The position numbers were made by a program, and so were the translations under genes. This document shows, piece by piece, positions 20,800 through 37,264 of a stretch of 64,000 nt of DNA. Position 1 is the first letter of the stretch, and each line of letters begins with the position of its first letter. A model generated the notes under the pieces. It saw nothing but the letters and a program-made list of their open reading frames with translations. It made no database searches and had not been told where the DNA came from. Source of the DNA: Falsochrobactrum shanghaiense (GTDB lineage: Bacteria > Pseudomonadota > Alphaproteobacteria > Rhizobiales > Rhizobiaceae); assembly GCF_003149535.1 (NCBI RefSeq), contig NZ_QGDB01000002.1:124001-188000 (forward strand), given 5' to 3'.

Positions 20800-21960
20800 A
20801 TGAACGCCATCGTCAGGAAACTCGAAGCAGACAATGCCGTCATGAAGGAATGGTTCGAGCATATGCATCGCCATCCCGAGCTTTCGATGCAGGAGACGCG
20901 CACCGCCGAATTCATTGCCGACACCTTGCGCAGCTTCGGCGGTTTTGATGTGCAGACCGGGATCGGCAAATATGGCATCGTCGCTTCCCTCAAGGTTGGC
21001 GACGGGGACAAGGTGATCGGCCTGCGCGCCGATTTCGACGCGCTGCCGATTCAGGAGGAAAACGACTTCCCCTATCGCTCGACGGTTGCCGGTGTGTCGC
21101 ATCTTTGCGGCCATGACGGCCACACGACCATGCTGCTGGCCGCGGGCAAATATCTCGCTGAAACGCGCAATTTCAATGGTACGGTGCGGCTGATCTTCCA
21201 GCCCGGCGAAGAAACCATGGAGGGCGGCCCGGCCATGATCGATGACGGGTTGTTCGAGCGCTTCCCTGTCGATGCGGTCTTCGGCATGCACAACATTCCG
21301 GGGCTGGAGGAAGGCAAGTTCTACTTCCACCCCGGCGAGATGATGTCCGCCGTGGACAACTGGGAAGTCGAGATCATCGGCAAGGGCGGTCATGGCGGCA
21401 TCCCGGAGCTCACCATCGATCCCGTCGTGGCAGGCTCCTCCATCGTCATGGCGATCCAGAGCATCGTTTCGCGCAATGTCGCTCCGGCGAACCGCGCGGT
21501 CGTGACCATCGGCGCGTTTCTGGCGGGCAATGCCGGTAATGTGGTGGCGGGCAGTGCGATCCTGCGCTTCTCGATCCGTTCGACCACGCCCGAGGATCGC
21601 GAGATGATTCTGGGCAATATCCGCCGCATCGTCGATCATCAGGCGCAATCCTTCGGCTGCACCTTTGAAATCCGCGAGGGCATTCCCGGTGCCGTACTGG
21701 TGAATGACGCGGAGGAAACCGACAAGGCTGCGAAAATCGCGCAGGCTGCCTTCGGGGAGGCTCAGGTGGTCTATCCCGGCCCGTCTTTCCTTGCCTCGGA
21801 AGACTTTGCTTTCATGCTGCAAAAGAAAAAGGGAACTTACTGTTTCCTTGGCAGCGGTCGGGGCAAGATGGTTCACCATCCCGAATATTTCTTCAACCAG
21901 AATATCCTGCCCATCGGCGCGGCCTATTGGGTGGCGCTGACGGAAAACTACCTGCGCTGA
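20800..21960 (+). CDS. M20 family amidohydrolase (hippurate/N-acyl amino acid hydrolase type)
   Basis: 386-residue cytosolic metallo-hydrolase that cleaves an amide bond of an N-acylated amino acid or similar conjugate. Visible motifs: R-A-D-F-D-A-L-P, the H-L-C-G-H-D-G-H metal block near residue 100, Q-P-G-E-E-T-x-E-G-G near 133, M-H-N-I-P-G, and G-x-G-G-H-G-G-I-P of the dimerisation lid. The ATG is preceded by AGGAGAAAT within the end of the MFS gene. Exact substrate (hippurate, indole-acetyl amino acid or other) is not decidable. Confidence 0.9.
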   Translation: MNAIVRKLEADNAVMKEWFEHMHRHPELSMQETRTAEFIADTLRSFGGFDVQTGIGKYGIVASLKVGDGDKVIGLRADFDALPIQEENDFPYRSTVAGVSHLCGHDGHTTMLLAAGKYLAETRNFNGTVRLIFQPGEETMEGGPAMIDDGLFERFPVDAVFGMHNIPGLEEGKFYFHPGEMMSAVDNWEVEIIGKGGHGGIPELTIDPVVAGSSIVMAIQSIVSRNVAPANRAVVTIGAFLAGNAGNVVAGSAILRFSIRSTTPEDREMILGNIRRIVDHQAQSFGCTFEIREGIPGAVLVNDAEETDKAAKIAQAAFGEAQVVYPGPSFLASEDFAFMLQKKKGTYCFLGSGRGKMVHHPEYFFNQNILPIGAAYWVALTENYLR

Positions 21961-22033: not shown

Positions 22034-22086
22034 AACGCATGTCGTTATCCCGAAACCGGTTCCCACTTTCGGGCGACACGCTCTAA
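22034..22086. repeat. Rhizobiales/Brucella-type short intergenic palindromic repeat
   Basis: Holds the inverted pair CCCGAAA...TTTCGGG framed by GCATGTCGTTAT and CGACACGCTCTAA, wording common between genes in Brucella and relatives. It overlaps the last codons of the leftward MFS gene, whose stop codon lies inside it. Confidence 0.7.
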
Positions 22087-23288
22087 AGACGTTTATTTAA
22101 TTTCAAGCAATAATATGAACATGCTATCAATAAAAACCCTGTAACGATAAATACAGCGGAAACATTAAAATAAATCAATATAACGGCGAATAATGCGGAA
22201 GGCAGTATCTGCGCCAGATCCCGGTATGTATTATATATGGGGACCAGCCGAACTCTTTGATGGGGGCGGACAGCCCGCAAGAAAGCTGCGTTTCCACCAC
22301 TATCGACAGCGCTGATCGCAAGAGAAGCTCCAATCAATAAACCTATTGATAGCAGTGCATGGTCTTTTCCAACTATGCCGGAAATCGCCGTCAAAATTCC
22401 ACAGGCCAGATAGCCATAGAAGAAAGTAAGCCGAAGCCCATGTTTTCGCGAGATGGTTTGCCATGCAGGGGCTAAAAGCAATGTGGCCGATCCAATTGCA
22501 ATGATAATGCCGCCGGTCGAGTAACCATATCCGGCTTTCACTGCATATACAGGCGTATATACGCCATAGACCTGCCACCACCATGAACGCACTATCGCGA
22601 GAAACCAGGCCAGTTTCAGCCGGGGTTGTGAGGCGAATAGAAATACGTCCTTAAAGCTCGGCAAGGCGAGTTTGACCGATGCGGTTAGTTTAAGGGACGA
22701 AGGTATCAGCGCAAGCATGATAACAGGCACCAAAACGGCACAGAGCCCGCTAATGGCAATCGGTATCCAGATATTGCCGATATATATGGCCCAGCTACCG
22801 ATCAGCGGCCCCGCCAGATAAGTAACTCCGGCAAAAAGTATGCGCCGGGATTCGAAAAACGACAGGTCTTTGCGTGGAATTATCTGTGTCGTGTAAATAT
22901 TGATGGCGCTTTCGAAAAGCGTGAACATCAGGAATTGAAACAGCAAGCCCGGAAATAATAAATAAGCATTATAAGACAGAAAAGCCGCGGCTGATAATAT
23001 ACCGAATATAACGGCTAAGAGCAGCGAATTCCATAATCCCAAACGCGATATGATCCGCGGCAGGAAGACACTGAAGACGAGGCAAATCGAACTGGATATA
23101 AGATATAAGGTGCTTATAAGGCTGATTTCACCGAAAGCCCTCAGTGCCAATATAGGTATCACCGCCACGACTGACGTTCGAGCCAACACCATGGTGGCAT
23201 AGATGACAGACAGGGTCCATTGTGGGGATCTGGTTCGCTGATGTATGAATATGATGCGTCCCCATGGATTGAGATTGTTCTTGTTCAA
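22083..23288 (-). CDS. MFS transporter of the opine-like catabolic operon
   Basis: 401-residue, 12-TM major facilitator. The first helix begins near residue 27, so the start must lie upstream of codon 30; TTG at 23288 is the best in-frame candidate, directly downstream of an in-frame TGA, but it has no good ribosome-binding site. The 3' end runs into the intergenic repeat. AT content and use of ATA/TTA codons are higher than in the neighbours, hinting at later acquisition. Last gene of the leftward operon, 45 bases after the Rossmann-protein gene. Substrate unknown. Confidence 0.8.
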   Translation of the reverse strand: MNKNNLNPWGRIIFIHQRTRSPQWTLSVIYATMVLARTSVVAVIPILALRAFGEISLISTLYLISSSICLVFSVFLPRIISRLGLWNSLLLAVIFGILSAAAFLSYNAYLLFPGLLFQFLMFTLFESAINIYTTQIIPRKDLSFFESRRILFAGVTYLAGPLIGSWAIYIGNIWIPIAISGLCAVLVPVIMLALIPSSLKLTASVKLALPSFKDVFLFASQPRLKLAWFLAIVRSWWWQVYGVYTPVYAVKAGYGYSTGGIIIAIGSATLLLAPAWQTISRKHGLRLTFFYGYLACGILTAISGIVGKDHALLSIGLLIGASLAISAVDSGGNAAFLRAVRPHQRVRLVPIYNTYRDLAQILPSALFAVILIYFNVSAVFIVTGFLLIACSYYCLKLNKRL

Positions 23289-23333
23289 GCCGTATCGTCA
23301 TCGTTGGATCGGAGCCGCTCCAAAGTCCAGCGT

Positions 23334-24416
23334 CTATGCGGGTTCGCTCATTAGACGATCCCGCAGCTTGAGCATATCCTCACATACAATTTCCAGATCC
23401 TTGACTTCAAATCCGTCCGCGAACTGGAACTTTTCCTCTTTGAGCAATTCGTGGAGCCTGCCTTTATATTGGGCTGTCTGCCCTTCGACAATTAATCCGC
23501 CGCGTTGTTCGAAGCTGGCGTTCCAGGCAATGGCTTCCTCTGCACTGATCGCGTGCGGCAAATCCAGTATAAGCTCATTGTTTACAAGGCGCACGGGATA
23601 GCCTCCCGGCAGGCCTGCCGGACCCGGCACATGTCCGCTCCAGCCCGTCCCTGCGGCAAGGGCGAGTATAAGTGTGACGCCCGATGCCCCCGAAATTTCG
23701 ATCGCCGGTTCTGGCGTGAGCTGGCATTGTTCGAAGGTCTTGAAGACATCTTCCAGTTTTTGATCGCCAATATAAACCAGGGGTGCGATGGAGCCGGAGC
23801 GTTCTTCGGGGGGCTTGCGCCAGGCCGACAGGCATTGATAGTGCGCAATTACACGTAAAGGTGCTGCCTGCTCGCTCTCATATGCGCCCGCAAAGACGTT
23901 GGAGAGGATTGCGACATTGCCGGTGCCGCAAAGCACGTCATGTCCCATTGCCTTGATGATGCCGTTTACCACGTCAGGAAAAGGGCAGTTGATCAGCAAG
24001 GGCCTGTTTTTGCGGCGTGAGATTGCTGCGGCCATGCGTGTTGAAATCAGGGACTGAAAAACGGCGGTGGCGCTCAGGCCGCCATCGGCGACCAGTTGGG
24101 TCCAGCGGTTGCCCTTGTCGGAAATGACGGTTGATGTCTGAATAGAGGCGGCCTGGACGACGATGCGCGGATCGCACGCTTCCAGAAGGTCGTCGCTGGC
24201 GCCATCGGCAACCATATCGACTTCGATGGTCGAGAAACGAGCCGGGGTGGAGAACATCGCCGCGCGCGCATTACCGGCGGTTTTCAGCCAGTTCAGCCGC
24301 ATTTTATTTCTGCCCGCAATGACGACATTGACCGGCTGTTTCGCCGTCGAAGCAATGTCCAGCGCGATACGCCCCGCAAACATGCCCGTTCCAGTAATCA
24401 AAACATCGCAGCTCAT
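23334..24416 (-). CDS. NAD(P)-binding Rossmann protein, saccharopine/opine-dehydrogenase-like
   Basis: 360 residues. The N-terminus V-L-I-T-G-T-G-M-F-A-G-R-I-A-L-D-I followed by V-V-I-A-G-R-N is a nucleotide-binding Rossmann motif with an arginine that could favour NADP. The rest shows no family signature I can name securely; saccharopine-dehydrogenase-like or opine-dehydrogenase-like is the closest guess. The start ATG at 24416 overlaps the stop of the CoA ligase gene by 4 bases, so the two are translationally coupled. It may reduce or oxidise a pathway intermediate. Confidence 0.7.
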   Translation of the reverse strand: MSCDVLITGTGMFAGRIALDIASTAKQPVNVVIAGRNKMRLNWLKTAGNARAAMFSTPARFSTIEVDMVADGASDDLLEACDPRIVVQAASIQTSTVISDKGNRWTQLVADGGLSATAVFQSLISTRMAAAISRRKNRPLLINCPFPDVVNGIIKAMGHDVLCGTGNVAILSNVFAGAYESEQAAPLRVIAHYQCLSAWRKPPEERSGSIAPLVYIGDQKLEDVFKTFEQCQLTPEPAIEISGASGVTLILALAAGTGWSGHVPGPAGLPGGYPVRLVNNELILDLPHAISAEEAIAWNASFEQRGGLIVEGQTAQYKGRLHELLKEEKFQFADGFEVKDLEIVCEDMLKLRDRLMSEPA

Positions 24417-25936
24417 AATGCCTTACCTTTCACCAATTGCGGGGCCTCCCACCGCGTTTCCGGGTTAATTTGGAGCAAATGCTTTTGAATTCTCTGACTG
24501 GGCGTCCGGGGAAACTGCTCTACGATGGAGATATATCGTGGCCGCTGGTGTGGCGCTAAGCGGCTTGCGAGCCAGCTCGATATTTCCTCCGGGGCAGGTG
24601 TCGTGCCGGGGCGAGGCTCTATAAAAAGATGAATGTCATATTCACCGATTTCAGCCTTTACGCCGACCAGAGCGGCTTCCTCGATGTCAGGATGGCGATT
24701 GGCGACGCTTTCCACTTCGTAGGCTGAGACATTCTCACCTTTGCAGCGTATGGAATCGCCCGTGCGGCCATGGAAGAACAGATGGCCTTCTGCATCCCAT
24801 GATCCCAGATCGCCGGTATAAAAACCGTCGGGCCGCACAGCCCTGTCCGTCGCCTGCGCGTTGCGGTAATATCCGGGCGTGATCGCGCCGGGCAATGTGG
24901 TGCTGACGACGATTTCGCCCTTTCCTTCGCCCCACCCCAGAATGCGACCATCTTCCCCCACAAGGCGGACATCGAAATAGGGTAATGGCCGACCGACCGA
25001 ACCCACGACATTCTCGTCATTATAGGTTGTCAGCGAAGAGCATTCGGTCATGCCGTAACATTCGCGGATCTGAACTCCGAAGCGCTCCTCAAAGGCGCGC
25101 CAGACCGAAGGAGCGCAACCGCCTCCCCATGCAACTCTCACCTGATGATTTCTGTCATGGAAGCTCTCGGGCTGCTTGAGCAATATCTGGATTATGCCGC
25201 CCAGATGGTGAATGTGCGTGCAACCGGTTTCGCTGACCTGCTTCCAGAACTGCGAAGCGCTGAAGCGCTCCGCCACCGTCAGCGTAATATCCTCGAATAA
25301 AGGCAACAGGATCACCTGTGCGCCGCCGATATGATAAAATGGCTCCCACATGAAAAACTTGTCGCCCGGCTCAAGATCGGTGCAAAGCGCTACGGAATGG
25401 CAGGCGAGTTCCAGCATCATGTGGCTGACCATGACGCCCTTTGCCGGGCCGGTCGTGCCGGAGGTGAACATGATTGCAGCCAGATCGTCCGGCTGGGGCA
25501 GATCGACAGGGGGGGCGTCGCCCTTGTATTCGGGGAAGGCAGTTTCCGTCACGATATGTATCGCGGTGCCGGTCAGTTGCGCATGCTCTTGAACGGTATT
25601 GGCGACATCCGGTTCACAGAATGCGATTTTGGGCAGGGTTGTGTTGAACACGTTTTCCAGTGCGCTGCCGACCAGCGCCGGATTGACGGGAACCCACACC
25701 AGACCCCGCCGCAGCAGGGCAAAGATCAGCGCCAGCGAATAAGGGCTGTTGGGCATCATCACGACCACGCGATCGCCTGCCTTGGCGCCGGCATCCGCAA
25801 GCAGCTGTCCCAGAGCCTCGGATGCCCTGTAGAGATCGCCGAAATTGCACAACTGACCGTTCAATGTCGCATAGGCATTTTGCGCATTGTTGTGAGCGCG
25901 GTTGAGAAATGACCGCACCAGTCCATGGATATGCAT
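24413..25936 (-). CDS. AMP-forming acyl-CoA synthetase (CaiC-like)
   Basis: 507-residue ANL-superfamily ligase that activates a carboxylic acid with ATP and joins it to CoA. Visible: the P-loop F-T-S-G-T-T-G-P-A-K-G-V near residue 155, E-C-Y-G-M-T-E-C-S-S near 302, and Y-T-G-D-L-G near 385. The C-terminal hinge and catalytic block has S-I-R-C-K-G-E-N-V-S-A-Y-E-V-E. Sequence style is that of crotonobetaine/carnitine-CoA ligases. Start ATG at 25936 with AAGGA upstream. It sits in an operon with a crotonase-like enzyme and an importer, so the substrate is probably the imported molecule or a degradation product. Confidence 0.9.
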   Translation of the reverse strand: MHIHGLVRSFLNRAHNNAQNAYATLNGQLCNFGDLYRASEALGQLLADAGAKAGDRVVVMMPNSPYSLALIFALLRRGLVWVPVNPALVGSALENVFNTTLPKIAFCEPDVANTVQEHAQLTGTAIHIVTETAFPEYKGDAPPVDLPQPDDLAAIMFTSGTTGPAKGVMVSHMMLELACHSVALCTDLEPGDKFFMWEPFYHIGGAQVILLPLFEDITLTVAERFSASQFWKQVSETGCTHIHHLGGIIQILLKQPESFHDRNHQVRVAWGGGCAPSVWRAFEERFGVQIRECYGMTECSSLTTYNDENVVGSVGRPLPYFDVRLVGEDGRILGWGEGKGEIVVSTTLPGAITPGYYRNAQATDRAVRPDGFYTGDLGSWDAEGHLFFHGRTGDSIRCKGENVSAYEVESVANRHPDIEEAALVGVKAEIGEYDIHLFIEPRPGTTPAPEEISSWLASRLAPHQRPRYISIVEQFPRTPSQRIQKHLLQINPETRWEAPQLVKGKAL

Positions 25937-25980
25937 TTTGCATCCTTAGTAATCAAATCAAGAAGAGGGTTGTCTTTGAG

Positions 25981-27713
25981 CTATTTTTCGAGTTTGCGGG
26001 CCAGGAGCAGGATCGTTGTCACAACAAGCAACACGATGACCGAAACTGCCGCGAGAGTGGGGTTGAGTTGCAGGAACATGTCGTCCCACATTTGTTTCGG
26101 CAGCGTTGTTTTAAGTCCGCCCGATACGAAAATCGCGATTGTCAGCTCGTCAAGCGATGTCACGAAAGCAAACAGGGCCGCAGAGAGCAGACCGCCTCGC
26201 AACAACGGAATGGTGATGAGCCGCAATATAGTGAGTTTGGTCGCCCCCATGGTTTCTGCGGCCTGATTAAGACGCCAGTCATAATTTTTCAGAACAGAGC
26301 CGATGGTGATGAAAGCATAGGGGAGCGCCAGCAAGGTATGGCCGATGACAAGACCGGTATCCGTAGCGACCAGACCGATCTGGGCCATCAGATAGAACAG
26401 GCCGACCGCAATCACGATTCTTGGCACGATCATCGGCGCGAGAATAAGCCCGAAGATGAAGCCGTTCATGCGGGAACTGCTGCGGGATAGAGCCAGCGCT
26501 GCCAATCCGCCCAATATCGTGGCAAAGAATGCCGTGGCAAATGCGACGCCGAAGGAGCGTATGGTTGCGCTCATCCAGATGGCTGAATTGAAATATTGCT
26601 CAAACCAGCGCAGAGAGAAGCCGGGGGGCGGGAAAGCCAGATTTCTGCCGGAGGTAAAGCTGAGAGGTATGACGATCAGGCCGGGCAGCATCAGGAAAAT
26701 TATCAGCAGCACCACATAGGCAGTACGGACCGGATTGCTGTTTGCACCGGGCGAGGAAAGGCGGTCGAGCGGTCGAAAGATCTTCGCAAGGAGCGCCAGT
26801 ATCCCATAGCCCGACTTTCGTAACAGGCTATCGGGGGACAATGATTTCTTGCTTTGCGCCCCATTGCCAGCCGACAGGGAGGAAAGGCCAAACAGCCTGT
26901 TATAAATTGCGATTACCAGCAGCGCGGCAACGACCAGCATTGTCGCCAATACTGCGGCAAAGGGCCAGTTTACGATTTCCTGCACCTGCGTGATGATCGT
27001 CTGGGCCAGCATCGTCTGCTGGCGTCCGCCCAGAAATGCAGGAACGATGAAGAAGCCGAGCGAGGTTATGAAGGTGAGCAGTCCCGCAGCAACCACGCCC
27101 GGCATGGAAAGCGGAAAATAGACGAGCCAGAAGCGGTCCGAACGGCTTGCGCCCATCGTCGATGCTGCGAGTGTCAATCGGTTGTCGATGCCCGACATCA
27201 CGGGCAGCATGGAAAGAACGGCCAGCGGGATCATGGCATGGACCATGCCGATCAGAACGCCAAGCTCGTTATACATCAGGTTGACAGGGCGTTCGGCGAG
27301 GCCGGAACCCAGAAGCAGGCTGTTGAACACGCCGTTTTTGCCAAGAAGGATCATCCAGGCAAAGGTCTTCACCAGATAAGACGTCCAGAATGGCAGAAGC
27401 ACCAGCAGCAACATATTGCTGCGCTGGCGGCCTTCCAATCCTGCAAGCCACATGGCGATGGGGTAGCCGAAGAGCACGGAGAACAAGGCCGTAAGCGCAG
27501 AAATCTCCAGCGTTATGCCTAATATTCTCCAATAAAGAAGGCTGTCACCCAGTCGTTCATAGTTAGACAATGTGAAGCTGCCGGCTGCTTCATCCGTAAA
27601 ACTCAGGCCCAGAAGCCGGAACATGGGGAAAAGGAAAAATACAGCCAGCAGCAGAAGCGCCGGAACGGCGAGCCAGAGTGGATCCGGCTTCCAGTGTTTT
27701 GCCGATACGCTCG

Positions 27714-27717
<4 letters not shown>
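25981..27717 (-). CDS. Fused ABC transporter permease (PotB-PotC type)
   Basis: 578-residue integral membrane protein made of two binding-protein-dependent permease domains in one chain, each with about six membrane segments. The two EAA-type loops that contact the ATPase are visible: A-A-S-T-M-G-A-S near residue 190 and A-A-E-T-M-G-A-T near 495. Separate PotB and PotC proteins are each about 280 residues, so this is a full fusion. Start ATG at 27717 overlaps the ATPase gene stop by 4 bases. Polyamine, iron(III) and amino-acid-like solutes are all handled by this family. Confidence 0.92.
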
Positions 27718-28796
<1,079 letters not shown>

Positions 28797-28865
28797 TACT
28801 ACTCCGTAGCATAGCAAGTCTTCTCAGGCCGCTTGCGGGCTTGAGACATGAGTGTGTCGCTTGGA

Positions 28866-28904
28866 GCGCACCCCGAAAAGCATGAAACGGTTTTCGGGAT
28901 GCGC
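28866..28904. repeat. Rhizobiales short palindromic repeat inside the ABC operon
   Basis: Inverted repeat with arms GCGCA-C-CCCGAAAA and TTTTCGGG-A-TGCGC around a 10-base centre. The same wording is frequent between genes in Brucella and other Rhizobiales. Placed between the binding-protein and ATPase genes, its RNA hairpin could make the binding-protein message more abundant than the rest. Confidence 0.7.
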
Positions 28905-29029
28905 GTTTAAACAAAAGCGTGGAGCGCCGATCTGATCCAGCCAGATCGACATGTGTTTCGCGGCAAAGCGATAAAATCGCTTTCCTCAGGGATGGCCTTG
29001 AACCCGGATTCGCCACACTGGAAGGCCCG

Positions 29030-30085
29030 TTATCGCAACAGCCAGCCGTTGAAGCGTTCGGTCGCTGCATTGCGATGTTCGAGCCAATAAGGATCGGATG
29101 CCAGCGACATCAACTTCAGGTTTTCAGGAGATGTCGGCAGAATCGTCGCGCGGTCGGGCTCGATGAAATCATAGGCTTTCAGATTGGTCGGGCCGTAAGC
29201 GAGATATTCCGTAAACTTCGCCTGCTGCTTGCCCTGAGCGCAAAAGGCGATGAATTCGCGTGCAATATCCGCCTTGGGGCTGCCCTTGGGTACGCCCCAT
29301 CCTTCTATCGAATAAAGCCCCTGATTCCAGACGAGTTCAGCGGGAGTGCCATTGTCGATTGCCGCCTGAAAGCGGGCATTCCAGCCTGCAATCATGTCCA
29401 CTTCGCCGCTTTCGAGAAGCTGGGTCGACTGCGCGCCGCCAGTCCACCAGACATCGATATGATCCTTGATTTCATCCAGCTTGCGGAATGCACGATCCAC
29501 ATCCAGCGGATAAAGATCCTGTGGAGCCACACCGTCCGCCATCAAGGCGATTTCCAGCGTGTCGAGCGGATTCCTGCGCAACGACCGGCGGCCGGGGAAA
29601 TCGGCGACGTTCCAGAAATCCGCCCAGCTTTTCGGCGGGTTCGGGCAGGTCTCCTTGTTGTATGCAAGCACTGTCGAATACACATCCGTCCCAAGCATAT
29701 TCGTATGCACTGCTTCCGGCATGACATCGGCGACAGCTTCTGCGGGCAAATTCAGCGGTTCGAGCAGATCGTCCTTTTCCAGAATGAGGCGCGCTGAAAG
29801 GGTAATCGTGCAGACATCCCAGATATAGGACTTGGTTTCCACAATCGACTTGAACTGCGCCGTTGGTTCGGCATCTCGCGCCACGCCCTGAATTTCGATG
29901 CCGGTCTGAGCGGTGAAATCATCGTAGAATGCGACACGATAGCCGTCCCCGAAAGGGCCGCCGGGATCGGCGACGACAAGACTTTGATTGGCCCATGCCT
30001 TGCGATTGATCATCGGCATGGCGAGCGCAGCCGCTCCCCCGATGAGCAGGGTCCGGCGGCTGATTTCGAAAGAAGAATTTTTCAT
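29030..30085 (-). CDS. ABC transporter substrate-binding protein (PotD/polyamine type, Tat-exported)
   Basis: 351-residue periplasmic binding protein for the adjoining importer. The N-terminus I-S-R-R-T-L-L-I-G-G is a twin-arginine signal, probably cut at KAWA-N near residue 33. The mature part has the SBP_bac_8/PotD layout (A-D-x-G-G-P-F-G-D, Y-N-K-E-T-C-P near 150, Y-P-L-D-V-D-R near 185, a W-T-G-G-A stretch and W-G-V-P-K-G-S near 265). Start ATG with AAGGGGA upstream. Ligand class by family: polyamines, opines or similar cationic compounds. Confidence 0.9.
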   Translation of the reverse strand: MKNSSFEISRRTLLIGGAAALAMPMINRKAWANQSLVVADPGGPFGDGYRVAFYDDFTAQTGIEIQGVARDAEPTAQFKSIVETKSYIWDVCTITLSARLILEKDDLLEPLNLPAEAVADVMPEAVHTNMLGTDVYSTVLAYNKETCPNPPKSWADFWNVADFPGRRSLRRNPLDTLEIALMADGVAPQDLYPLDVDRAFRKLDEIKDHIDVWWTGGAQSTQLLESGEVDMIAGWNARFQAAIDNGTPAELVWNQGLYSIEGWGVPKGSPKADIAREFIAFCAQGKQQAKFTEYLAYGPTNLKAYDFIEPDRATILPTSPENLKLMSLASDPYWLEHRNAATERFNGWLLR

Positions 30086-30172
30086 TGTATCCCCTTGTTA
30101 TAGTTAGATGAGAATAGAAAATGCCCGGATTGCCTGATTATGTCGCAACCCAGGGGCGTTATCCTGCAGAAG

Positions 30173-30949
30173 CTACGCCTTGACTTTTCGGGCAGCGCGC
30201 TCCGCAAAGAATTTCTCCATCATTGCCTGCGGTTCGCCCGACGCATAGGCTTCGGTCTGTATGCGAATTCCTGCCCGCATGGCCTCGTCAAAACCCTGCT
30301 GGGTGACTTCGGCGATGCGTTGACGGTTAAGACGCATGGCGCCGACCGGCTTGGAGGCCAGCAGATTGGCCAGATCGAGCGCTTCCTGCTGCACCTTTTC
30401 CTGATCGACCAGTCGTGAAATCAACCCGAAGGAATAGGCCTCGTCAGCGCCCAGCATGCGGCCGGTCAGGGTCAGGTCGATGGCGCGCGCCAATCCGACG
30501 ATCTCACGCATGATCCAGTTTCCGGTAACGGTCGGAATGCCTGAATTGATTTCCGGCTGGCCCATTGAAACGCCCGGATGAGCTACGCGCAGATCGCACA
30601 GCAAGGCTATCTGGAAAGCAGACCCGGCGGCAACCCCGTTCAGAGCAGCGATGATTGGCTTGGAAGAATTGCGAAACAGCGAATAAAGGACGTTCCATTC
30701 ATCCATCCACCCCTCGGCGCTGGAGGAATCGAAGGTTTTGGTTTCACTCAGGTCCTGACCCGCACCAAAAGCGCGATCACCCGCTCCCGTCAGAATCACT
30801 GCGCGAACCGAAGTGTCGCGCTCCGCGTCCTTCAAGGCTTCGATGAGCTGGTCACGCATGGATTTATTCCATGCATTGAGTTTTTCAGGACGGTTCAGGG
30901 TGATCCGGCGAACAGCCCCGATGGTTTCTGTGAGAATAAACGCGCTCAC
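30173..30949 (-). CDS. Enoyl-CoA hydratase/isomerase (crotonase) family protein
   Basis: 258-residue crotonase-fold enzyme, first gene of the leftward catabolic operon. GTG start with GGAG at proper spacing. The oxyanion-hole segments are visible (D-R-A-F-G-A-G-Q-D-L-S near residue 63 and N-G-V-A-A-G-S-A near 108). Of the two glutamates used by true hydratases, the second is kept (Q-P-E-I) but the first position is Gln (A-F-Q-I-A-L-L-C-D). The reaction may therefore be isomerisation, hydrolysis or a variant hydration. A CoA ligase in the same operon can supply its substrate. Confidence 0.85.
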   Translation of the reverse strand: MSAFILTETIGAVRRITLNRPEKLNAWNKSMRDQLIEALKDAERDTSVRAVILTGAGDRAFGAGQDLSETKTFDSSSAEGWMDEWNVLYSLFRNSSKPIIAALNGVAAGSAFQIALLCDLRVAHPGVSMGQPEINSGIPTVTGNWIMREIVGLARAIDLTLTGRMLGADEAYSFGLISRLVDQEKVQQEALDLANLLASKPVGAMRLNRQRIAEVTQQGFDEAMRAGIRIQTEAYASGEPQAMMEKFFAERAARKVKA

Positions 30950-30960
30950 TTTAATCTCCG

Positions 30961-30978
30961 TTATTGCAATGTGATAAT
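30961..30978. promoter_or_regulatory. Putative operator A of the opine-like regulon
   Basis: TTATTGCA-ATGT-GATAAT, an imperfect palindrome (TTAT...ATAA arms) beginning 12 bases upstream of the crotonase GTG start. The same spaced motif occurs at 32059-32076 before the other operon. Confidence 0.6.
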
Positions 30979-31207
30979 TCTTATTTTATAGAAACAAGGA
31001 AACTTGGCGACGTCAAGGAAAAGTTCGGACTTCTCCAATTTTTCGGCAAAGCGAATTACATGAACGGCAGCAATCATTCTAAGTCGGCAATAGTGACAGT
31101 GCTTATGATTCTGGCGTATCCCTGCAGCGCGATGCGGCTTGTCATGCCGGCGGGTATCTGGAATGGGTTAACGTTTGCAATCCTGACGATTGAGAGTCGG
31201 AGATAGG

Positions 31208-31990
31208 ATGACAGTAATGAAGGCTACCAAGAAAAAATCAGATCCCTTGATGGTGCAATCTGTTGCAAAAGCATTCCATATTCTTCAGTCGTTCGATCGT
31301 TACAACCCGGCCATGACGCTCTCGCAACTGGCGCAGAAAGCGGATGTCGACATCAGCACCGCGCAGCGTTTCACCCATACGTTGCAACAGCTTGGCTATC
31401 TCAATAAAAACCCGTTCAACCGCCAGTACGAACTGTCGATCAAGGCGCTGGATCTGGCATATCACTTCACGCGAAGCTCGCGGCTGGTAGACCGCGCCAT
31501 GCCCATTCTCCAGCATCTTAGCAAGCAAACCGAAGAAACTGTGAACCTGACGGTCCTCGATGGGCACGAGATCGTATTCGTAACGCGCTTTCTCAGCCGC
31601 CATCTTCTTAATACTGACGTTATCGTGGGTTCACGCTTGCCGGCATTCTGCACCGCGCCGGGGCGGGCAACGCTTTCCCGTCTGCCCAGAGAGCGGGTTC
31701 TTGAAATACTCGCGGCGTCGGAACTGCGCAGCTATACGCGTGATACGCCAACGGACCCCGAGCGTATTCTGGCAATGATCGCGGAAACGCGCGCTGCGGG
31801 TTTTGCGACGGCTTATGAAGAAATCTATCATGCGGATGCGTCAATCGCCGCCCCGATCGTCGGGCCGAATGGCGATGTGGTCGCTGCTGTCAGCGTCGCT
31901 GTCACGCTGGCGCGCTACAAGCGCGAAGATGTGCCCGAGCGTTTCGCCAACCTGGTGATCGCCGCCGCTCATTCCATATCCGTCGGCTAA
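31208..31990 (+). CDS. IclR-family transcriptional regulator of the opine-like operons
   Basis: About 260 residues from the ATG at 31208 (AGAGTCGGAGATAGG upstream); ATG 31217 is an alternative. N-terminal winged helix (residues 13-75, with M-T-L-S-Q-L-A-Q-K-A-D-V-D-I-S-T-A-Q-R as the helix-turn-helix) and a C-terminal ligand-binding domain ending near 250. It stands between the leftward importer/CoA operon and the rightward oxidase operon, and is the natural candidate for the protein binding the two shared motifs. The effector is unknown, presumably the pathway substrate. Confidence 0.9.
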   Translation: MTVMKATKKKSDPLMVQSVAKAFHILQSFDRYNPAMTLSQLAQKADVDISTAQRFTHTLQQLGYLNKNPFNRQYELSIKALDLAYHFTRSSRLVDRAMPILQHLSKQTEETVNLTVLDGHEIVFVTRFLSRHLLNTDVIVGSRLPAFCTAPGRATLSRLPRERVLEILAASELRSYTRDTPTDPERILAMIAETRAAGFATAYEEIYHADASIAAPIVGPNGDVVAAVSVAVTLARYKREDVPERFANLVIAAAHSISVG

Positions 31991-32015
31991 ATCGATCGGC
32001 TTTCATGCATTTTAA

Positions 32016-32044
32016 TTGACAAGGGCGGGAACTTGCCTTTACCT
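32016..32044 (+). promoter_or_regulatory. Putative promoter of the oxidase operon
   Basis: Consensus -35 TTGACA at 32016-32021 and a weak -10 (TTACCT, 32039-32044) at 17-base spacing. The shared motif lies just downstream (32059-32076), where a bound repressor could block the polymerase. Confidence 0.45.
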
Positions 32045-32058
32045 TTATTCAATAGCAA

Positions 32059-32076
32059 TTATTGCATTTCGATAAT
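32059..32076. promoter_or_regulatory. Putative operator B of the opine-like regulon
   Basis: TTATTGCA-TTTC-GATAAT, matching the site at 30961-30978 at all 14 fixed positions. It ends 14 bases before the ATG of the 2Fe-2S subunit gene and overlaps a second small palindrome (GCAAT-T-ATTGC, 32055-32065). Confidence 0.6.
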
Positions 32077-32090
32077 GAGGGTGCAAACCC

Positions 32091-32396
32091 ATGCGCGTAA
32101 ACCAGTTTCTCCCTTTGCGAACCGATAAAAAGCCGGGCCTTGTCATCTATTTTGACGGCGCCCCCATCCATGCATGGCATGGAGAAACGGTGATCTCCGC
32201 TTTGCTGCGGCATCAGCACCACCTGTCATATTCGGAATTCGACGGGGCTGCGCGGGCGGGCTTTTGCCTTATGGGTGCCTGTCAGGATTGCTCGGTCTGG
32301 ACGGATGAGGGCAGGCGTTTGCGCGCTTGCCGTACCCCGGTGGAAGACAATCAGCGGCTATTGAGCCGCGCGCCGATGCATGGTTTTCACCCATGA
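32091..32396 (+). CDS. 2Fe-2S ferredoxin-like subunit of dye-linked dehydrogenase (HcnA/LhpF type)
   Basis: 101-residue electron-transfer subunit. Cys59, Cys64, Cys67 and Cys80 give the plant-ferredoxin pattern C-x4-C-x2-C-x12-C for one 2Fe-2S cluster. Its size matches the small subunit of hydrogen cyanide synthase, opine oxidase-like and D-hydroxyproline dehydrogenase complexes. First gene of the rightward operon; its stop overlaps the next start (ATGA). Confidence 0.88.
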   Translation: MRVNQFLPLRTDKKPGLVIYFDGAPIHAWHGETVISALLRHQHHLSYSEFDGAARAGFCLMGACQDCSVWTDEGRRLRACRTPVEDNQRLLSRAPMHGFHP

Positions 32397-33808
32397 CAGG
32401 CAATGGTTCCAGCACTTTGCGCCCTGTTATCATTGGCGCAGGGCCTGCGGGGCTTGCCGCGGCTCAAGCCTTCGTTGAAGCAGGAATCCGGCCTGTTGTG
32501 CTGGAGGAAACGAATTTTGCCGGGGGACAGGGAACGCGCCGGCTTAATCCGGCAATCGAAGAACTCGGCAGTACAATTTTTGGCCGCAAGGCTTACGAAC
32601 ACGCTCTGGCGCGGCAGAAACAGGAAGATGCAGTTCTGGCGCAATGCGACTATCGGTCCAATACTCTCGCATGGGGAATATATGACGGCACCATTTCCAC
32701 CCTGTCAGACGGGCGGCACGATGAAATAGCCTATGAGCAATTGCTCGTGGCAATTGGCGCGACCGACCGGATAATGGCCGTAGAGGGTTGGCAATTGAGC
32801 GGAGTCTACTCCCTCGGCGGGGCGCAAGTGGCCCTTAAAACGCATGCGAGCAGTATCGGCAGAAAGCTCGTATTTGCCGGTTCGTCTCCATTGCTTTATC
32901 TGGCCGCGGCGCAATATGCCCGTCTGGGTTTCACGGACATCACCATTCTTGACACGACGCCGGCAGGCAAAAAATATCGCGCGGCTTTCGCGATGGCCCG
33001 CTATTCTCTGAAAACCCTTCTGGAAGGCATGGGGCTCATTCGTGAGCTTCGCGCTTTCGGCGTCAGGATCAGGCAGGGTGCCCGGCTGATCCGCTTTGAG
33101 GGCGATCAGCGCGTGCGCTCGGTGGCCTATCTGGAAAAAGGGGCCAAACGGCAGTCGATCGAATGTGACGCCGTAGCCTTTGGGTTTGGGCTGAGGCCGG
33201 AAATACAGCTCGCCGAACTGGCGGGCGCCAGACTGGGCTTCAGTAATGAGTTTCGCCAATGGTTTCCCCTGATCGATGATGATGGGCGCGCGGGCGCAAA
33301 TCTCTGGCTTGCCGGGGACAGCGCCGCCATAGGAGGGGCCGATGCAGCCGCCGCGTCGGGCCGTTTGGCGGCATTGGCCATGCTGGGCCAGCACGGCAAA
33401 CCGATCGATCACAGGGAGGTTGCGCGGCTGCGCGCGCGAGTGAAGAGGCTGCGGAATTTCCAGAAGGCGATGGCCAAAGCTTTCCTCTGGCCGGGTGAGG
33501 AGGCACGCCATATCAGCGACGAAACCTATGTTTGCCGTTGCGAACGCGTCACGGCCGGAGAAATCCGGCAGGCTATCGGCTCTGTGGTCGCGCATACGGA
33601 TGTGAACCGCATCAAGGCTATAACGCGTTGCGGCATGGGGCGTTGCCAGGGCCGCTTTTGCAGCCAGACCCTGCAAGAGATTGCAATCTCGCTCTCTGGG
33701 AAAGAACCGGACGCAGCTGGATGGCTGCGCGCGCAGGCGCCGTTCCGCCCTGTTCCAGTAAGCGGTGACGCCGGGTTCCTCAACCAAGGGGAACGAGACG
33801 GTGCATAA
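32393..33808 (+). CDS. FAD/NAD(P) oxidoreductase subunit with C-terminal 2Fe-2S domain (HcnB/OoxA/LhpE type)
   Basis: 471-residue flavoprotein subunit. Start ATG 32393 overlaps the previous stop. FAD motif I-I-G-A-G-P-A-G-L-A-A-A near residue 12, then a pyridine-nucleotide-disulfide-reductase fold with F-G-F-G-L-R-P-E and A-G-D near 310. It ends in a BFD-like iron-sulfur module (C-R-C-E-R-V-T near residue 382 and C-G-M-G-R-C-Q-G-R-F-C near 413). In octopine/nopaline oxidases and D-hydroxyproline dehydrogenase this subunit partners a DAO-fold subunit, which is the next gene. Confidence 0.9.
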   Translation: MTGNGSSTLRPVIIGAGPAGLAAAQAFVEAGIRPVVLEETNFAGGQGTRRLNPAIEELGSTIFGRKAYEHALARQKQEDAVLAQCDYRSNTLAWGIYDGTISTLSDGRHDEIAYEQLLVAIGATDRIMAVEGWQLSGVYSLGGAQVALKTHASSIGRKLVFAGSSPLLYLAAAQYARLGFTDITILDTTPAGKKYRAAFAMARYSLKTLLEGMGLIRELRAFGVRIRQGARLIRFEGDQRVRSVAYLEKGAKRQSIECDAVAFGFGLRPEIQLAELAGARLGFSNEFRQWFPLIDDDGRAGANLWLAGDSAAIGGADAAAASGRLAALAMLGQHGKPIDHREVARLRARVKRLRNFQKAMAKAFLWPGEEARHISDETYVCRCERVTAGEIRQAIGSVVAHTDVNRIKAITRCGMGRCQGRFCSQTLQEIAISLSGKEPDAAGWLRAQAPFRPVPVSGDAGFLNQGERDGA

Positions 33809-34982
33809 GAAACATGATGCCATTATTGTCGGTGGCGGGTTGTTCGGCGTTTCAACAGCCTATTTTCTGGCCAAGGCGGGCTGGAGCGTATTGCTGATCG
33901 ATCGCGGCTTTATTGGTGCAGCGTCCAGTGGAGCAAATTTTGGCGGGTTGCGCTTGCAGGGCCGTGCGCTTGAGCAATATCCGCTCTCATTGCTCGCACA
34001 GCAATATTGGGAGAGGTTTCAGGAGGAATTCGGCTCTCCTTGCGAATATGAACGCAATGGCATGATTTACTTTGCCCATAGCGACAAAGGACGCGAAAAG
34101 CTTCTGCATTACGCAGAAAATTCCCGCCAATGCGGACTTGCAATCAATCTTTGGGAAGGTGAGGAATTGCGAAAGAACCTTCCCTGGCTGAGCGGGGATG
34201 GCATCATCGCATCCTATTCCCCGGCCTGTGCGGTTGCCAATCCCCGGCTTGCCACCCCGGCCATAGCCCGCGCATTCAAAAGGCTGGGCGGTTCCATTCT
34301 CGAAAATTGTGTCATCGAACAATTCCGGAAGGACGGGGATGGTTTCGTGCTGACAAGCGCGGACGGGCAGGAATTCATGGCCGCGACCCTCATTAATGCG
34401 GCTGGAGGTTGGGCGGACAGCATAGCCGAAACGTTCGGTGAGACGGTCCCTTTGCTACGGGCCGGTCCGCCGCAATTCGTTACCGAGCCTCTTCCCTATG
34501 TTCTCAAGCCGTCCATCTATACGATTGAAGGAGATCTGATCATCCGGCAGATTTCCCGCGGAAACTTCATTTTCGCCGGCTACCCCCGCACGATGTCCAA
34601 TGAAGATGGCAGGCACACATTCGTTCCCCCGGCCAAAACACGCAATGGCATGCAGGCAATCGGTCGTTATATCCCTGCCTTGAAACATGCCGAGGTCATT
34701 CGCGTGTGGTCCGGCGTTGAAGCCTATCTGCCAGACATGCTTCCCGTCATCGGTGCATCGCAAACCACCCCCGGCCTGTTTCATGCCTTTGGCGGCAGCG
34801 GCGGGGGCTTTCAGGTGGGGCCAGCCGTGGGTCTTTGCCTCAGCAATATAATATTGGGACGACCCAATGATGTGCCTATGGAACCATACGGCATTGGTCG
34901 GTTCAGGTCTCAAATCAAGACAAGCGATAAGCTGAAACTGGAATTCGATGCGGCCCGGCCCACCCAACGGCGGCATCTGTAA
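33801..34982 (+). CDS. DAO-fold FAD oxidoreductase subunit (HcnC/OoxB/LhpB type)
   Basis: 393 residues from GTG 33801, which follows AAGGGGAACG and overlaps the upstream gene by 8 bases; an earlier in-frame codon would give an unnatural N-terminus. The N-terminal FAD motif A-I-I-V-G-G-G-L-F-G-V-S-T-A and the C-terminal F-G-G-S-G-G-G-F block place it in the glycine/D-amino-acid oxidase superfamily. With the two preceding genes it should form a membrane-associated heteromeric dehydrogenase that oxidises a secondary amine (an opine-type or proline-type compound) and feeds the respiratory chain. Confidence 0.88.
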   Translation: MHKKHDAIIVGGGLFGVSTAYFLAKAGWSVLLIDRGFIGAASSGANFGGLRLQGRALEQYPLSLLAQQYWERFQEEFGSPCEYERNGMIYFAHSDKGREKLLHYAENSRQCGLAINLWEGEELRKNLPWLSGDGIIASYSPACAVANPRLATPAIARAFKRLGGSILENCVIEQFRKDGDGFVLTSADGQEFMAATLINAAGGWADSIAETFGETVPLLRAGPPQFVTEPLPYVLKPSIYTIEGDLIIRQISRGNFIFAGYPRTMSNEDGRHTFVPPAKTRNGMQAIGRYIPALKHAEVIRVWSGVEAYLPDMLPVIGASQTTPGLFHAFGGSGGGFQVGPAVGLCLSNIILGRPNDVPMEPYGIGRFRSQIKTSDKLKLEFDAARPTQRRHL

Positions 34983-34994
34983 GAGGAAAACGGG

Positions 34995-36293
34995 ATGGTG
35001 CTGGCGAAGCGGGATGCCACCAAGAATCGACAGGCAATATGTGTCGTCGGAGGAGGGCTGGTAGGGCTGTTCACCGCGCTCGCTCTTCAGGAGCGGGGCA
35101 AGAATGTCGTTTTGCTGGAACATGCAGAGATCGGCGGTCGGCAGGCAGCATCATTTGGCAATGGCTGCTGGATCAATCCCGGAGCGATCATGCCGATGTC
35201 ATTACCGGGTCTTTTGTGGCAGGTGCCCGGTTTCCTGCTCAACCCGAATGGTCCTTTCACCATTCGATGGAGGCATCTTCCATCATTGGCGGGATGGCTC
35301 CTGCGTTTTTTATGGGCCGGGCGAAGCTGGGAACAGGTAGAAAAGCAGATCAGGCAACGCCTTCCCCTGCTGGATAATCCGGTCAGTCATTATCAAGCGC
35401 GCGCGCAACAGGCCGGTGTTCCTGAACTGATTTTGCCGACGGGCACGATGTATGTCTATCGCAGTCGCAAGGAACTGGATGCCGATGCCCGAAGCTGGGA
35501 ACTGCGAAGAAAAAACGGCATCAAGGTTCGCCTTCTTGAAGCGGATGAATTGAGAAAACGTGAGCCGGAACTCTCGCCTGCCTATCAATACGGCATGATG
35601 ATCGAGGAGGCGGCTACATTGGCCGACCCTTCGGCGTTTTGTCAGGCTCTGGGGCAATTGTTCACGTCGCGCGGCGGAGAAATCATTCAAGCCGGAGCAA
35701 CGGGCTTCATCCTCGATGACGGGAAACTCGTGGCTGTCCGGTCAGATCAGGGGGAAATATACTGTAATCAGGCCGTGGTGGCGGCGGGTGCATGGTCCAA
35801 GGCACTTGCAGCGAAACTCGGTGATCGTGTTCCTCTCATATCGGAGCGCGGTTATCATGTCACGATCAGCGATCCGGGCTTTCGCATCAATCATGGATTG
35901 ATGGATGCCGATGGCAAGATGGCAATCGTCATGACCTCGACCGGACTGCGATTTGCCGGACAGGTCGAACTGGCCAGCCTGACGGCGCCGCCGCGATGGA
36001 AGCGTGCGCGCATTCAGCTGAAATATGCGAAAAGACTGTTCCCGCCGCTCCGGCAGGGCGTCGAGCTTGAGAGAGCTGCGTATGATCTATGGATGGGGCA
36101 TCGTCCGTCGACGCCCGACAGCCTGCCGGTCATAAGCCGTTCCAATGCTTCGCCCGATATTGTCTATGCTTTCGGCCACGGCCATACGGGTGTTTCCATG
36201 GCGCCTGCAACCGCTAAACTGGTTGGGCAATTGCTTTGCGACGATCCTGAGAGCGATCATCAGGCTCGTGCTTTTTCCATAAAGAGATTTTGA
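34995..36293 (+). CDS. DadA-like D-amino acid dehydrogenase
   Basis: 432-residue FAD enzyme. FAD motif C-V-V-G-G-G-L-V-G-L-F-T-A at residues 15-27, E-H-A-E-I-G-G-R-Q, then the DadA-type block A-S-F-G-N-G-C-W-I-N-P-G near 54 and a C-terminal W-M-G-H-R-P-S-T-P-D-S-L-P-V-I with G-H-G-H-T-G-V-S-M-A-P. Length equals that of DadA. It is a second amine-oxidising enzyme in the same operon, perhaps acting on the D-amino acid set free by the first. Its end overlaps the next gene. Confidence 0.88.
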   Translation: MVLAKRDATKNRQAICVVGGGLVGLFTALALQERGKNVVLLEHAEIGGRQAASFGNGCWINPGAIMPMSLPGLLWQVPGFLLNPNGPFTIRWRHLPSLAGWLLRFLWAGRSWEQVEKQIRQRLPLLDNPVSHYQARAQQAGVPELILPTGTMYVYRSRKELDADARSWELRRKNGIKVRLLEADELRKREPELSPAYQYGMMIEEAATLADPSAFCQALGQLFTSRGGEIIQAGATGFILDDGKLVAVRSDQGEIYCNQAVVAAGAWSKALAAKLGDRVPLISERGYHVTISDPGFRINHGLMDADGKMAIVMTSTGLRFAGQVELASLTAPPRWKRARIQLKYAKRLFPPLRQGVELERAAYDLWMGHRPSTPDSLPVISRSNASPDIVYAFGHGHTGVSMAPATAKLVGQLLCDDPESDHQARAFSIKRF

Positions 36294-37264
36294 TGTCGAC
36301 GGATCTTCTCTATCTTTCACGCGCGGATGTCGAATGTCTCGTTCCTTCGAGAAGCAGCCTGCGCGCCGCTCTGGCCGAAGCCGTACGCCAGACGGCGTCC
36401 GGGCGGCTGAAATTCCTGCCCAAGTCTACTCTCACCTATGCAACCGGCCATAGTTTCCAGTCGATGCCCGCGCTTCTCGACAAGGGCGAAGCTACGGGGT
36501 TCGCCACGGTTAAATGGGTTTCCGTCGTGCCGGCCAGGGCTCATTCCAGCCTTGATAATATACATTCGATCATATGCGTTAACGATCTGCACACGGGACA
36601 GCCATTGGCCCTCATGGATGGCAATTACATCACCCTCGTCAGAACGGCTGCGCTTTCCGCACTTGCAGCGGAGCATATGCTCGATGGCGAACCTGCGGCA
36701 CTCGGCTTTATCGGCTGCGGCCAGCAGGCGGCGGAGCATTTATCGGCCTTTCATGACCTTTATCCTTCTCTGCGGCATGTGATCTGTTTTAGCCGCAGCG
36801 AACAATCGGCGCAGAAGCTTGCAGCTTCCGCCGAGGCGCTTTCCCTGAAATCGCAGATCACAAAATCGCCGGAATACGTGCTGCAACACAGCGATATAAT
36901 CATCAGTACCGTTCCTGCCGCTCCGGGTCTTGCTCCCTTTCTCGATGCAGGAATCATGAAAGATGATGCATTGGCGATCATGGTTGATCTGGGCCGCAGC
37001 TGGGTTCCCGAAGGTTTTGCGGCTTTCGCGCATATCGCCACGGATAGTCTGGAGCAAAGCGTGCGGCCCTATGACAATCAGGGCAATGAGCTGCAAACGG
37101 CCAGAGCGCAGATGGATTTGGAAACCCTTGTGGAACAGCCGCTGAAAGAGCCGGGCAAGAAGGCATTTTTCTTCAAGGGAATCGCTTCCGCTGATCTCGC
37201 CATTGCCGCCCTTGTCTATCAAAATGCGCTGGAGGAGAAAAAAGGCCATCGCCTTCCACGCTGA
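36293..37264 (+). CDS. Ornithine cyclodeaminase / mu-crystallin family protein
   Basis: 323 residues from ATG 36293, which overlaps the previous stop codon. Family features: K-F-L-P-K-S-T-L near residue 43, G-F-A-T-V-K-W near 72, L-M-D-G-N-Y-I-T-L-V-R-T-A-A near 108, and a Rossmann segment L-G-F-I-G-C-G-Q-Q-A near 142. Members are ornithine cyclodeaminases, ketimine or pyrroline-2-carboxylate reductases and opine-type dehydrogenases. Together with the upstream oxidases, reduction of a cyclic imine is the most natural role. Last gene of the operon. Confidence 0.88.
   Translation: MSTDLLYLSRADVECLVPSRSSLRAALAEAVRQTASGRLKFLPKSTLTYATGHSFQSMPALLDKGEATGFATVKWVSVVPARAHSSLDNIHSIICVNDLHTGQPLALMDGNYITLVRTAALSALAAEHMLDGEPAALGFIGCGQQAAEHLSAFHDLYPSLRHVICFSRSEQSAQKLAASAEALSLKSQITKSPEYVLQHSDIIISTVPAAPGLAPFLDAGIMKDDALAIMVDLGRSWVPEGFAAFAHIATDSLEQSVRPYDNQGNELQTARAQMDLETLVEQPLKEPGKKAFFFKGIASADLAIAALVYQNALEEKKGHRLPR

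Follow-up and report, generated by a model that had tools for sequence, protein, structure and literature searches.

A conserved pair of operons in Falsochrobactrum shanghaiense joining a CoA ligase and a crotonase to a three-part flavin dehydrogenase, and its possible role in the use of an opine-like compound

Here we show that two operons in a 64,000-nucleotide stretch of the Falsochrobactrum shanghaiense genome (assembly GCF_003149535.1, contig NZ_QGDB01000002.1, positions 124,001 to 188,000; hereafter the window, with positions counted from its first letter) recur together in other genomes and carry like operator motifs on either side of a gene for an IclR-family regulator. The leftward operon encodes an importer, an AMP-forming coenzyme A (CoA) ligase, a crotonase-fold enzyme and a Rossmann-like protein, and the rightward operon encodes a three-part flavin dehydrogenase followed by a DadA-like and an ornithine cyclodeaminase (OCD)-family enzyme. 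We are highly confident that both operons make up a single conserved regulon, and we cautiously favour the reading that its role is to import an opine-like compound (a secondary amine with carboxylates) and degrade it by two linked routes.

The unit is conserved, apparently co-regulated, catabolic and mostly alphaproteobacterial, and one of its protein families escapes the Pfam, NCBIfam and PDB libraries searched. No description of this gene set was found in the open-access literature, and the literature found names no substrate for it. If the ligand is indeed opine-like, opine use would extend to many bacteria far from crown gall and would gain a CoA route. The conserved binding protein makes the substrate directly findable by ligand screening, and the operator offers a clean reporter.

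Conservation and shared operators

A crotonase alignment was scanned against the contigs of 84,980 species' genomes; of at least 575 confirmed relatives, the best 80 were kept as loci, so that the frequencies given here are those of near kin. Flanks were long enough to judge in 65 loci, the other 15 being dropped, and the presence of each gene was set by percent-identity thresholds of our own choosing. Among the judgeable loci the ligase is present in 65, the IclR gene in 63 and the binding protein in 55, and importer and CoA enzymes stand together in 55, across several families. As to the Rossmann gene and the three-part dehydrogenase, 38 loci have both and 25 have neither; the remaining two have the Rossmann gene but not a complete dehydrogenase trio (L054, and L084, which retains the DAO gene). 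This joint recurrence, together with the like operator motif before both operons, bears out the proposal of a preliminary description of this DNA that the operons belong together, and clearly removes the concern, voiced there, that homologues of the two might never co-occur. DadA is found in 12 of the 65 loci, OCD in 17 and both in nine. The leftward set had also been taken to include a major facilitator superfamily (MFS) carrier; the gene is indeed present here, but relatives at that place occur in only 4/80 loci (L039, L040, L047 and L083; 4/65 judgeable), all near kin.

A quick tree was made of 84 CoA ligases, 47 of which carry the Rossmann label. This label requires 3 changes, a number as low as which was reached in none of 500 label shuffles, while the DadA/OCD label requires 11 changes on the same tree. 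Brucellaceae members are spread over several separate branches of the ligase tree, which suggests that the cluster has been passed between lineages by transfer. The block is found on plasmid records of Sagittula, two Bosea and Chelatococcus; Salipiger gave matching hits, and the core alone occurs on plasmid records of Azospirillum, Ensifer, Caballeronia and Paraburkholderia. Within the best 80 of at least 575 relatives, the closest named loci by crotonase belong to F. tianjinense (87%), F. ovis (86%), Brucella oryzae (87%) and B. tritici (85%). In broader draws, own genome included, 4 of 398 genomes of the phylum hold the crotonase orthologue and 9 of 397 genomes of the order hold a member of the Rossmann family; among 199 genomes of the taxonomic family, 13 match P0001 at E 0.001, several of them only partially or at about 25%. 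No Rossmann-family match was found in the core-only genome G054. Locus L140 of G054 holds a second crotonase orthologue (63%) by another IclR gene, a 39% ligase and a further crotonase.

The regulator matches the IclR domain models and scores 206.6 bits with TIGR02431 (PcaR/PcaU/PobR subfamily), below the cut-off of 284.75. A palindromic 17-bp motif, TTATTGCAWTGCAATAA, was fitted to 76 IclR-crotonase intergenic regions, the window's included, and a site is found in all 76 of these training regions, the lowest at 10.2 bits. The gap between IclR and the 2Fe-2S gene lay outside the training set; here a site of at least 14 bits is present in 39 of the 43 loci with a 2Fe-2S gene, and none of the 32 loci without that gene has a site within 250 bp on this side of IclR. 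Hereafter the predicted operators before the crotonase and dehydrogenase operons are called O1 and O2. Across 1.54 million bases there are twelve further sites, of which five lie close to module genes (L046, and twice each in L107 and L113), and one single-base shuffle of all loci gave 2 sites. Among 11 loci outside the training set, which include close kin of training loci (a twelfth, L134, repeats L066 and was not counted), O1 is present in 11, and O2 in five of the six with a 2Fe-2S gene (lacking in L027) and in none of the five without. In three Caballeronia/Paraburkholderia loci the IclR gene sits at the far end of the operon and the site is still at the crotonase, and in Afifella-type loci with the importer split off (L046, L141) an 18.1-bit site lies about 450 bp before the importer.

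In the window there are only two strong sites (25.7 and 24.7 bits), the next best reaching 13.1. Because a like motif precedes both operons, O2 tracks the 2Fe-2S gene, and the window holds just these two strong sites, both operons probably form one IclR regulon, with IclR presumably being the protein that binds the predicted operators. O1 stands just upstream of a ribosome-binding-like stretch, GGAGATT, and the crotonase GTG start, a placement that would suit a repressor.

Remote operators were sought in 16 genomes (own; nine, of which seven matched; six) with an operator pattern at up to two mismatches, which misses weaker sites: G696 and G765 gave no match, though the matrix finds both sites at their clusters. 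The own genome has 7 pattern places against 1 for a control pattern at this setting; at up to one mismatch there are three, namely O1, O2 and one inside a frame. Five own-genome places and five in two other genomes, all outside the clusters, were examined, including one about 50 bp before a 730-residue frame and one within a frame in the own genome; since none stands by a visibly linked gene, these matches are counted as chance. Six Ensifer-type loci (L068, L071, L077, L078, L081 and L098) share an operator-like site of 18-20 bits at a frame start outside the module, which reads TGATTGTAATGCGATAC in five of them.

The importer and the enzymes of both operons

The fused permease matches the PotB model over residues 23-274 and the PotC model over residues 330-576, both below cut-off. 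The binding protein scores 33.4 bits with the PotD equivalog model, against a cut-off of 582. Its nearest relatives of solved structure include 4i1d (2e-65), the agropine permease 6hly (1e-51), 4eq7 (3e-49), two ABC (ATP-binding cassette) proteins and a gamma-aminobutyrate (GABA) sensor, the mannopine protein MotA (5l9g, 8e-43), the spermidine/putrescine-binding 8jv1 (5e-25) and 1pot (1e-8); it is thus closer to agropine-/mannopine-type proteins than to PotD. We take 4eq7 to be the GABA protein Atu4243, in which Arg203 and Asp226 presumably contact GABA. Arg238 and Glu261 of the binding protein align with these two residues, and 6hly holds Arg and Glu there. Arg70, Arg238, Glu261, Trp214, Trp235 and Trp263 are invariant in 76/76 rows, window included. 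As the same residues are invariant in the 47 Rossmann-positive and the 29 Rossmann-negative rows, the two kinds of locus probably take up compounds of one sort, with a carboxylate and a positive nitrogen. Atu4243 is described as highly GABA-specific (PMC3907764), and binders of GABA and 5-aminovalerate are described (PMC11113362). Although the agropine and mannopine proteins and 4eq7 belong to the same binding-protein family, the protein here differs from them in being coupled to a CoA ligase and a crotonase. On balance the ligand is likely to be an opine-like amino-carboxylate rather than a polyamine or a betaine.

The best NCBIfam match of the ligase is PRK06155 (ATP-dependent acyl-CoA ligase), below cut-off, and no specific model is reached. 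The label "CaiC-like", given to it earlier, is loose, the crotonobetaine/carnitine-CoA ligase model (NF005947) being its third-best match with 225 bits against a cut-off of 651. Classical enoyl-CoA hydratases use two catalytic glutamates (Glu144 and Glu164 in the rat enzyme). The crotonase has Gln113 and Glu133 at what we take, by motif, to be the same positions, in 81/81 rows, and so departs at the first place from the two-Glu rule of classical hydratases and CaiD; a single Glu at the second place is known in isomerases and in hydroxycinnamoyl-CoA hydratase-lyase. Because Gln replaces the first catalytic Glu, the crotonase is probably not a plain hydratase. For PDB 4kd6 no paper was found in the open-access literature. 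CaiD/CaiC and feruloyl-CoA hydratase-lyase/synthetase are crotonase/ligase pairs, and here likewise one ligase probably feeds one crotonase; unlike those pairs, the present one has Gln113/Glu133, reaches no curated model and has amino-acid enzymes attached.

The gamma subunit of the dehydrogenase carries C-X4-C-X2-C-X12-C, in agreement with the motif published for flavin opine dehydrogenases, C-X4-C-X2-C-X11-12-C (PMC4575208). The alpha subunit has GAGPAG (ADP-binding) and C-X-C...C-X4-C, with a spacing of 29 residues, judged against pTiA6 OoxA (27, same pattern); the same paper prints X15-20 (PMC4575208). The beta subunit has GGGLFG (GXGXXG) and Arg-X-Trp as RVW, with Arg and Trp in 43/43 rows. 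These motifs and the trees uphold the earlier assignment of the enzyme to the opine/D-hydroxyproline/L-proline dehydrogenase kind, a subunit type shared with HCN synthase; characteristic of such heterotrimeric enzymes is an alpha4beta4gamma4 assembly with FAD, FMN and 2Fe-2S. In the beta tree (47 rows, none of them NoxB) the module rows form a clade of 15 (100/100), separate from an OoxB clade of seven (100/100), and in the alpha tree (36 rows) a clade of 15 (99/96) outside the OoxA clade; pTiA6 falls in the OoxB and OoxA clades, and long branches occur elsewhere in the tree. The module dehydrogenase is its own clade. The nearest PDB chain of the beta subunit is 1y56_B (3e-31), listed as sarcosine oxidase and presumably an archaeal L-proline dehydrogenase.

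Of the known systems, OdhABC (Pseudomonas putida PP_4457-4456, Bradyrhizobium japonicum bll7190-7193; PMC4575208) has the same 2Fe-2S, ADP-binding and Arg-X-Trp motifs and a DAO-fold beta subunit, and the gamma-alpha-beta order here equals the C-A-B order which that paper gives for a B. thailandensis cluster. The module differs from OdhABC in its own beta and alpha clades, its Rossmann partner, the CoA ligase and crotonase joined to it and the IclR gene alongside. Octopine catabolism of pTiA6 (occ, ooxB-C-A, ocd) also combines an importer, a three-part flavin enzyme and an OCD-family enzyme in one unit, but with OccQMPT and OccR in place of a PotABC-type importer and IclR; the beta subunit here is about 25% identical to pTiA6 OoxB, and no CoA ligase or crotonase is found among the 13 features of the octopine region examined. 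In L188 and L189, PotABC-type genes adjoin OoxB-OoxC-OoxA-DAO, the latter in the published OdhB1-C-A-B2 order (PMC4575208).

The Rossmann-like protein has no match in Pfam or NCBIfam, and its best PDB profile hit, at E 0.23, is not credible. Across 33 aligned rows G9-T-G11, G35-R-N37, N143-C and F146-P-D-V-V-N151 are conserved, and the protein is a probable NAD(P) (nicotinamide adenine dinucleotide (phosphate))-linked oxidoreductase. Relatives at 36-40% stand beside opine-dehydrogenase-fold, creatinase-like and enolase-like enzymes (L022; an Aminobacter plasmid), and a relative at 26% lies near another three-part dehydrogenase on Rhizobium tumorigenes plasmid pRt932. Given these neighbours and the pairing with the dehydrogenase, the family appears to act in amino- or imino-acid redox work. 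The 26% relative matches Epimerase at E 0.003 and Sacchrp_dh_NADP at E 0.01, neither reaching its cut-off; saccharopine was set aside as a substrate, the domain hint being weak. The best models of the OCD enzyme are alanine dehydrogenase, SbnB and pyrroline-2-carboxylate reductase, all below cut-off.

Among minor observations on this family, the Rossmann gene of Chelatococcus sp. CO-6 (L029, 19692-20788) is annotated as two overlapping coding pieces. Rossmann paralogues at L035 (13995-29062) and L022 (6043-10557) accompany enolase-superfamily, Xaa-Pro-peptidase-like and Octopine_DH genes; with malate synthase G also encoded in the L035 region, this hints at an amino acid pathway that yields glyoxylate. 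Another kind of three-part dehydrogenase cluster is found in L038 (R. tumorigenes pRt932) and L143 (Rhizobium sp. T136), together with IclR, MmgE/PrpD, alanine racemase, an importer for amino acids and a distant relative of the Rossmann protein; an acyl-homoserine-lactone synthase gene lies near one copy. It looks like another opine-type module, of which no description was met in the literature.

Variant loci combine crotonase and ligase with other carriers, which were called by eye. TRAP-type carriers are found in Halomonadaceae (L109 and L110, where DadA- or OCD-type genes lie close by), in L102 (with a DadA-type gene) and in Marinobacterium (L099, where neither was seen), and Liv-type carriers in Brucellaceae (L090, L113) and Desulfobacterales (L093, L112). 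An Octopine_DH-family gene is present in L093 (Pfam) and its relative, by clustering, in L112; Asp/Glu-racemase-family genes occur in L112 and L133, a proline racemase in L112, and a ProC gene behind the ligase in L107 and the Ensifer-type loci, as tested for L078 and L107. The recurrence of enzymes acting at the amino-acid alpha carbon supports an amino-acid-bearing substrate.

Proposed pathway and competing explanations

The preliminary description had suggested as substrate a conjugate, of which an amino part would be oxidised and an acyl part CoA-activated; this may be so. From these data we infer the class of ligand, the chemical steps and their order, and the mode of regulation as follows. 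The binding protein and PotABC-type importer would take up the opine-like compound, and the AMP-forming ligase would convert a carboxylate of it into a CoA thioester. The crotonase, with its one Glu, could then remove the alpha proton and eliminate a group from the beta carbon (water, or the amine itself) to give an enoyl-CoA. In the amino part, the C-N bond would be oxidised to an imine by the gamma-alpha-beta flavin dehydrogenase, whose product the Rossmann protein may reduce, or process in another way, with NAD(P)H. In loci that have them, the DadA-like and OCD-family enzymes could turn a D-amino acid into the L-form via the imino acid. Acting at both of the like operators, the regulator would probably be a repressor that the substrate releases. 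A more specific version remains speculative and doubtful: after CoA activation, the Gln/Glu crotonase would eject an amino acid from the beta carbon (a retro-aza-Michael reaction yielding the enoyl-CoA), and the new-clade dehydrogenase and new Rossmann reductase family would together invert or oxidise the amino part. In that version a substrate such as beta-alanopine, N-(2-carboxyethyl)alanine, would suit both halves.

Several observations weigh against an opine-like ligand degraded by linked routes. 8jv1, a protein named for spermidine and putrescine, still matches the binding protein, and 4i1d, its best solved relative, keeps the Arg but has Thr in place of Glu261. The beta subunit lies outside the OoxB (OpnDH type-1) clade and joins OdhB2-like rows, named by gene order (Bradyrhizobium type), through a weak link at 81/81 that includes other groups. 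O2 is missing in 4/43 loci with a 2Fe-2S gene (L042, L048, L050 and L088). We know of no flavin opine pathway that needs a CoA ligase. Finally, in 25/65 loci the crotonase/ligase half has no oxidising half beside it; the CoA half can therefore probably work independently, and the core may act on a simpler acid, leaving another compound to the dehydrogenase.

This last point leads to the alternative that survives best, although we hold it to be unlikely: two pathways under one regulator, in which the core degrades a carboxylic acid while the dehydrogenase, Rossmann, DadA and OCD enzymes degrade a separate amino or imino acid sharing the inducer. The occurrence of crotonase and ligase by TRAP- and Liv-type carriers in Halomonadaceae, Marinobacterium, Brucellaceae and Desulfobacterales is also in its favour. 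It is at odds with the fact that, among core loci, Rossmann gene and dehydrogenase are almost always paired, with the like operator at the second operon, with the identical binding-site residues in both groups of loci, and with G018, where DadA and OCD come after the Rossmann gene in the leftward operon.

Less probable still is a cyclic imino acid pathway, with a proline- or hydroxyproline-type dehydrogenase, an OCD enzyme that reduces pyrroline- or piperideine-2-carboxylate, and a CoA half that treats a ring-opened product. It accords with the relation of the beta subunit to 1y56_B, with ProC in L078 and L107 and the proline racemase of L112, and with the sub-threshold matches of OCD to pyrroline-2-carboxylate reductase models, but no aldehyde dehydrogenase or dihydrodipicolinate synthase-type deaminase is among the genes annotated at 17788-42346, and such a pathway has no known need of a CoA ligase and a crotonase.

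The preliminary description had left the choice between an opine-like and a betaine-like substrate; of these the opine-like fits best, and catabolism of carnitine or another betaine by CaiC- and CaiD-like enzymes is very improbable. The third-best rank of the CaiC model and an annotated CoA transferase near one Sagittula locus speak for it; against it stand the ligase score far below that model's cut-off, Gln in place of the first catalytic Glu throughout the crotonase rows, and, in a search limited to the window, the lack, in the annotated neighbourhood of 17788-42346, of any gene for an acyl-CoA dehydrogenase or a CoA transferase. Equally remote is ordinary polyamine or GABA uptake by an importer with unrelated neighbours, for although the ATPase passes the PotA subfamily model and the binding protein has GABA-type binders and, less closely, 8jv1 among its relatives, the PotD score of that protein and the linkage of importer and CoA enzymes in 55 loci across several families make plain polyamine uptake less likely.

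Gene content of the window

Genes were called from open reading frames and Pfam/NCBIfam profile scans in an annotated neighbourhood of 17788-42346, and all those named in the preliminary description were found where it had placed them (Table 1).

Table 1. Genes and predicted operators of the two-operon system, with window positions
Feature	Position	Strand	Evidence
MFS carrier, accessory	22083-23288	-	Pfam MFS_1 9e-17
Rossmann-like protein ("ROSS")	23334-24416	-	matches no Pfam/NCBIfam model; PDB, nothing credible
AMP-forming acyl-CoA ligase	24413-25936	-	Pfam AMP-binding 7e-66 and AMP-binding_C
Fused two-domain ABC permease, PotB+PotC-type	25981-27717	-	PotB and PotC models, both below cut-off
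PotA-type ABC ATPase	27714-28817	-	TIGR01187 363.6 bits, cut-off 355.6, passed
Periplasmic substrate-binding protein (SBP), agropine/GABA/mannopine group	29030-30085	-	SBP_bac_8; PDB relatives
Crotonase-fold enzyme, Gln113/Glu133 pair	30173-30949	-	ECH_1 2e-45; PDB 4kd6 7e-88
Predicted operator O1, TTATTGCAATGTGATAA, upstream of crotonase operon	30961-30977	.	motif matrix 25.7 bits
IclR-family regulator, PcaR/PcaU-like	31190-31990	+	HTH_IclR, IclR_C
Predicted operator O2, TTATTGCATTTCGATAA, upstream of dehydrogenase operon	32059-32075	.	motif matrix 24.7 bits
Gamma subunit, 2Fe-2S	32091-32396	+	Fer2_4 5e-21
Alpha subunit, FAD (flavin adenine dinucleotide)/NAD fold and BFD-like 2Fe-2S	32327-33808	+	Pyr_redox_2, Fer2_BFD
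Beta (catalytic) subunit, DAO fold	33765-34982	+	DAO 4e-66
DadA-like FAD dehydrogenase, accessory	34995-36293	+	DAO 1e-59; PRK00711 165.5 bits, below cut-off
OCD/mu-crystallin-family NAD(P) enzyme, accessory	36290-37264	+	OCD_Mu_crystall 3e-33

An M20 amidohydrolase gene abutted by an EmrB/DHA2-like MFS gene lies at 19287-21960. This pair was considered as part of the system and rejected: no relative adjoins L017 or L018 and none is among the listed flank genes of L039 and L040, while L047 has one elsewhere. A distant M20 relative lies close to the IclR gene in the Ensifer plasmid locus L030. Four GGDEF (diguanylate cyclase) genes surround the system (17788-18933, 37374-38096, 38203-39549 and 39608-41044), one of them with protoglobin and DosC-like middle domains.

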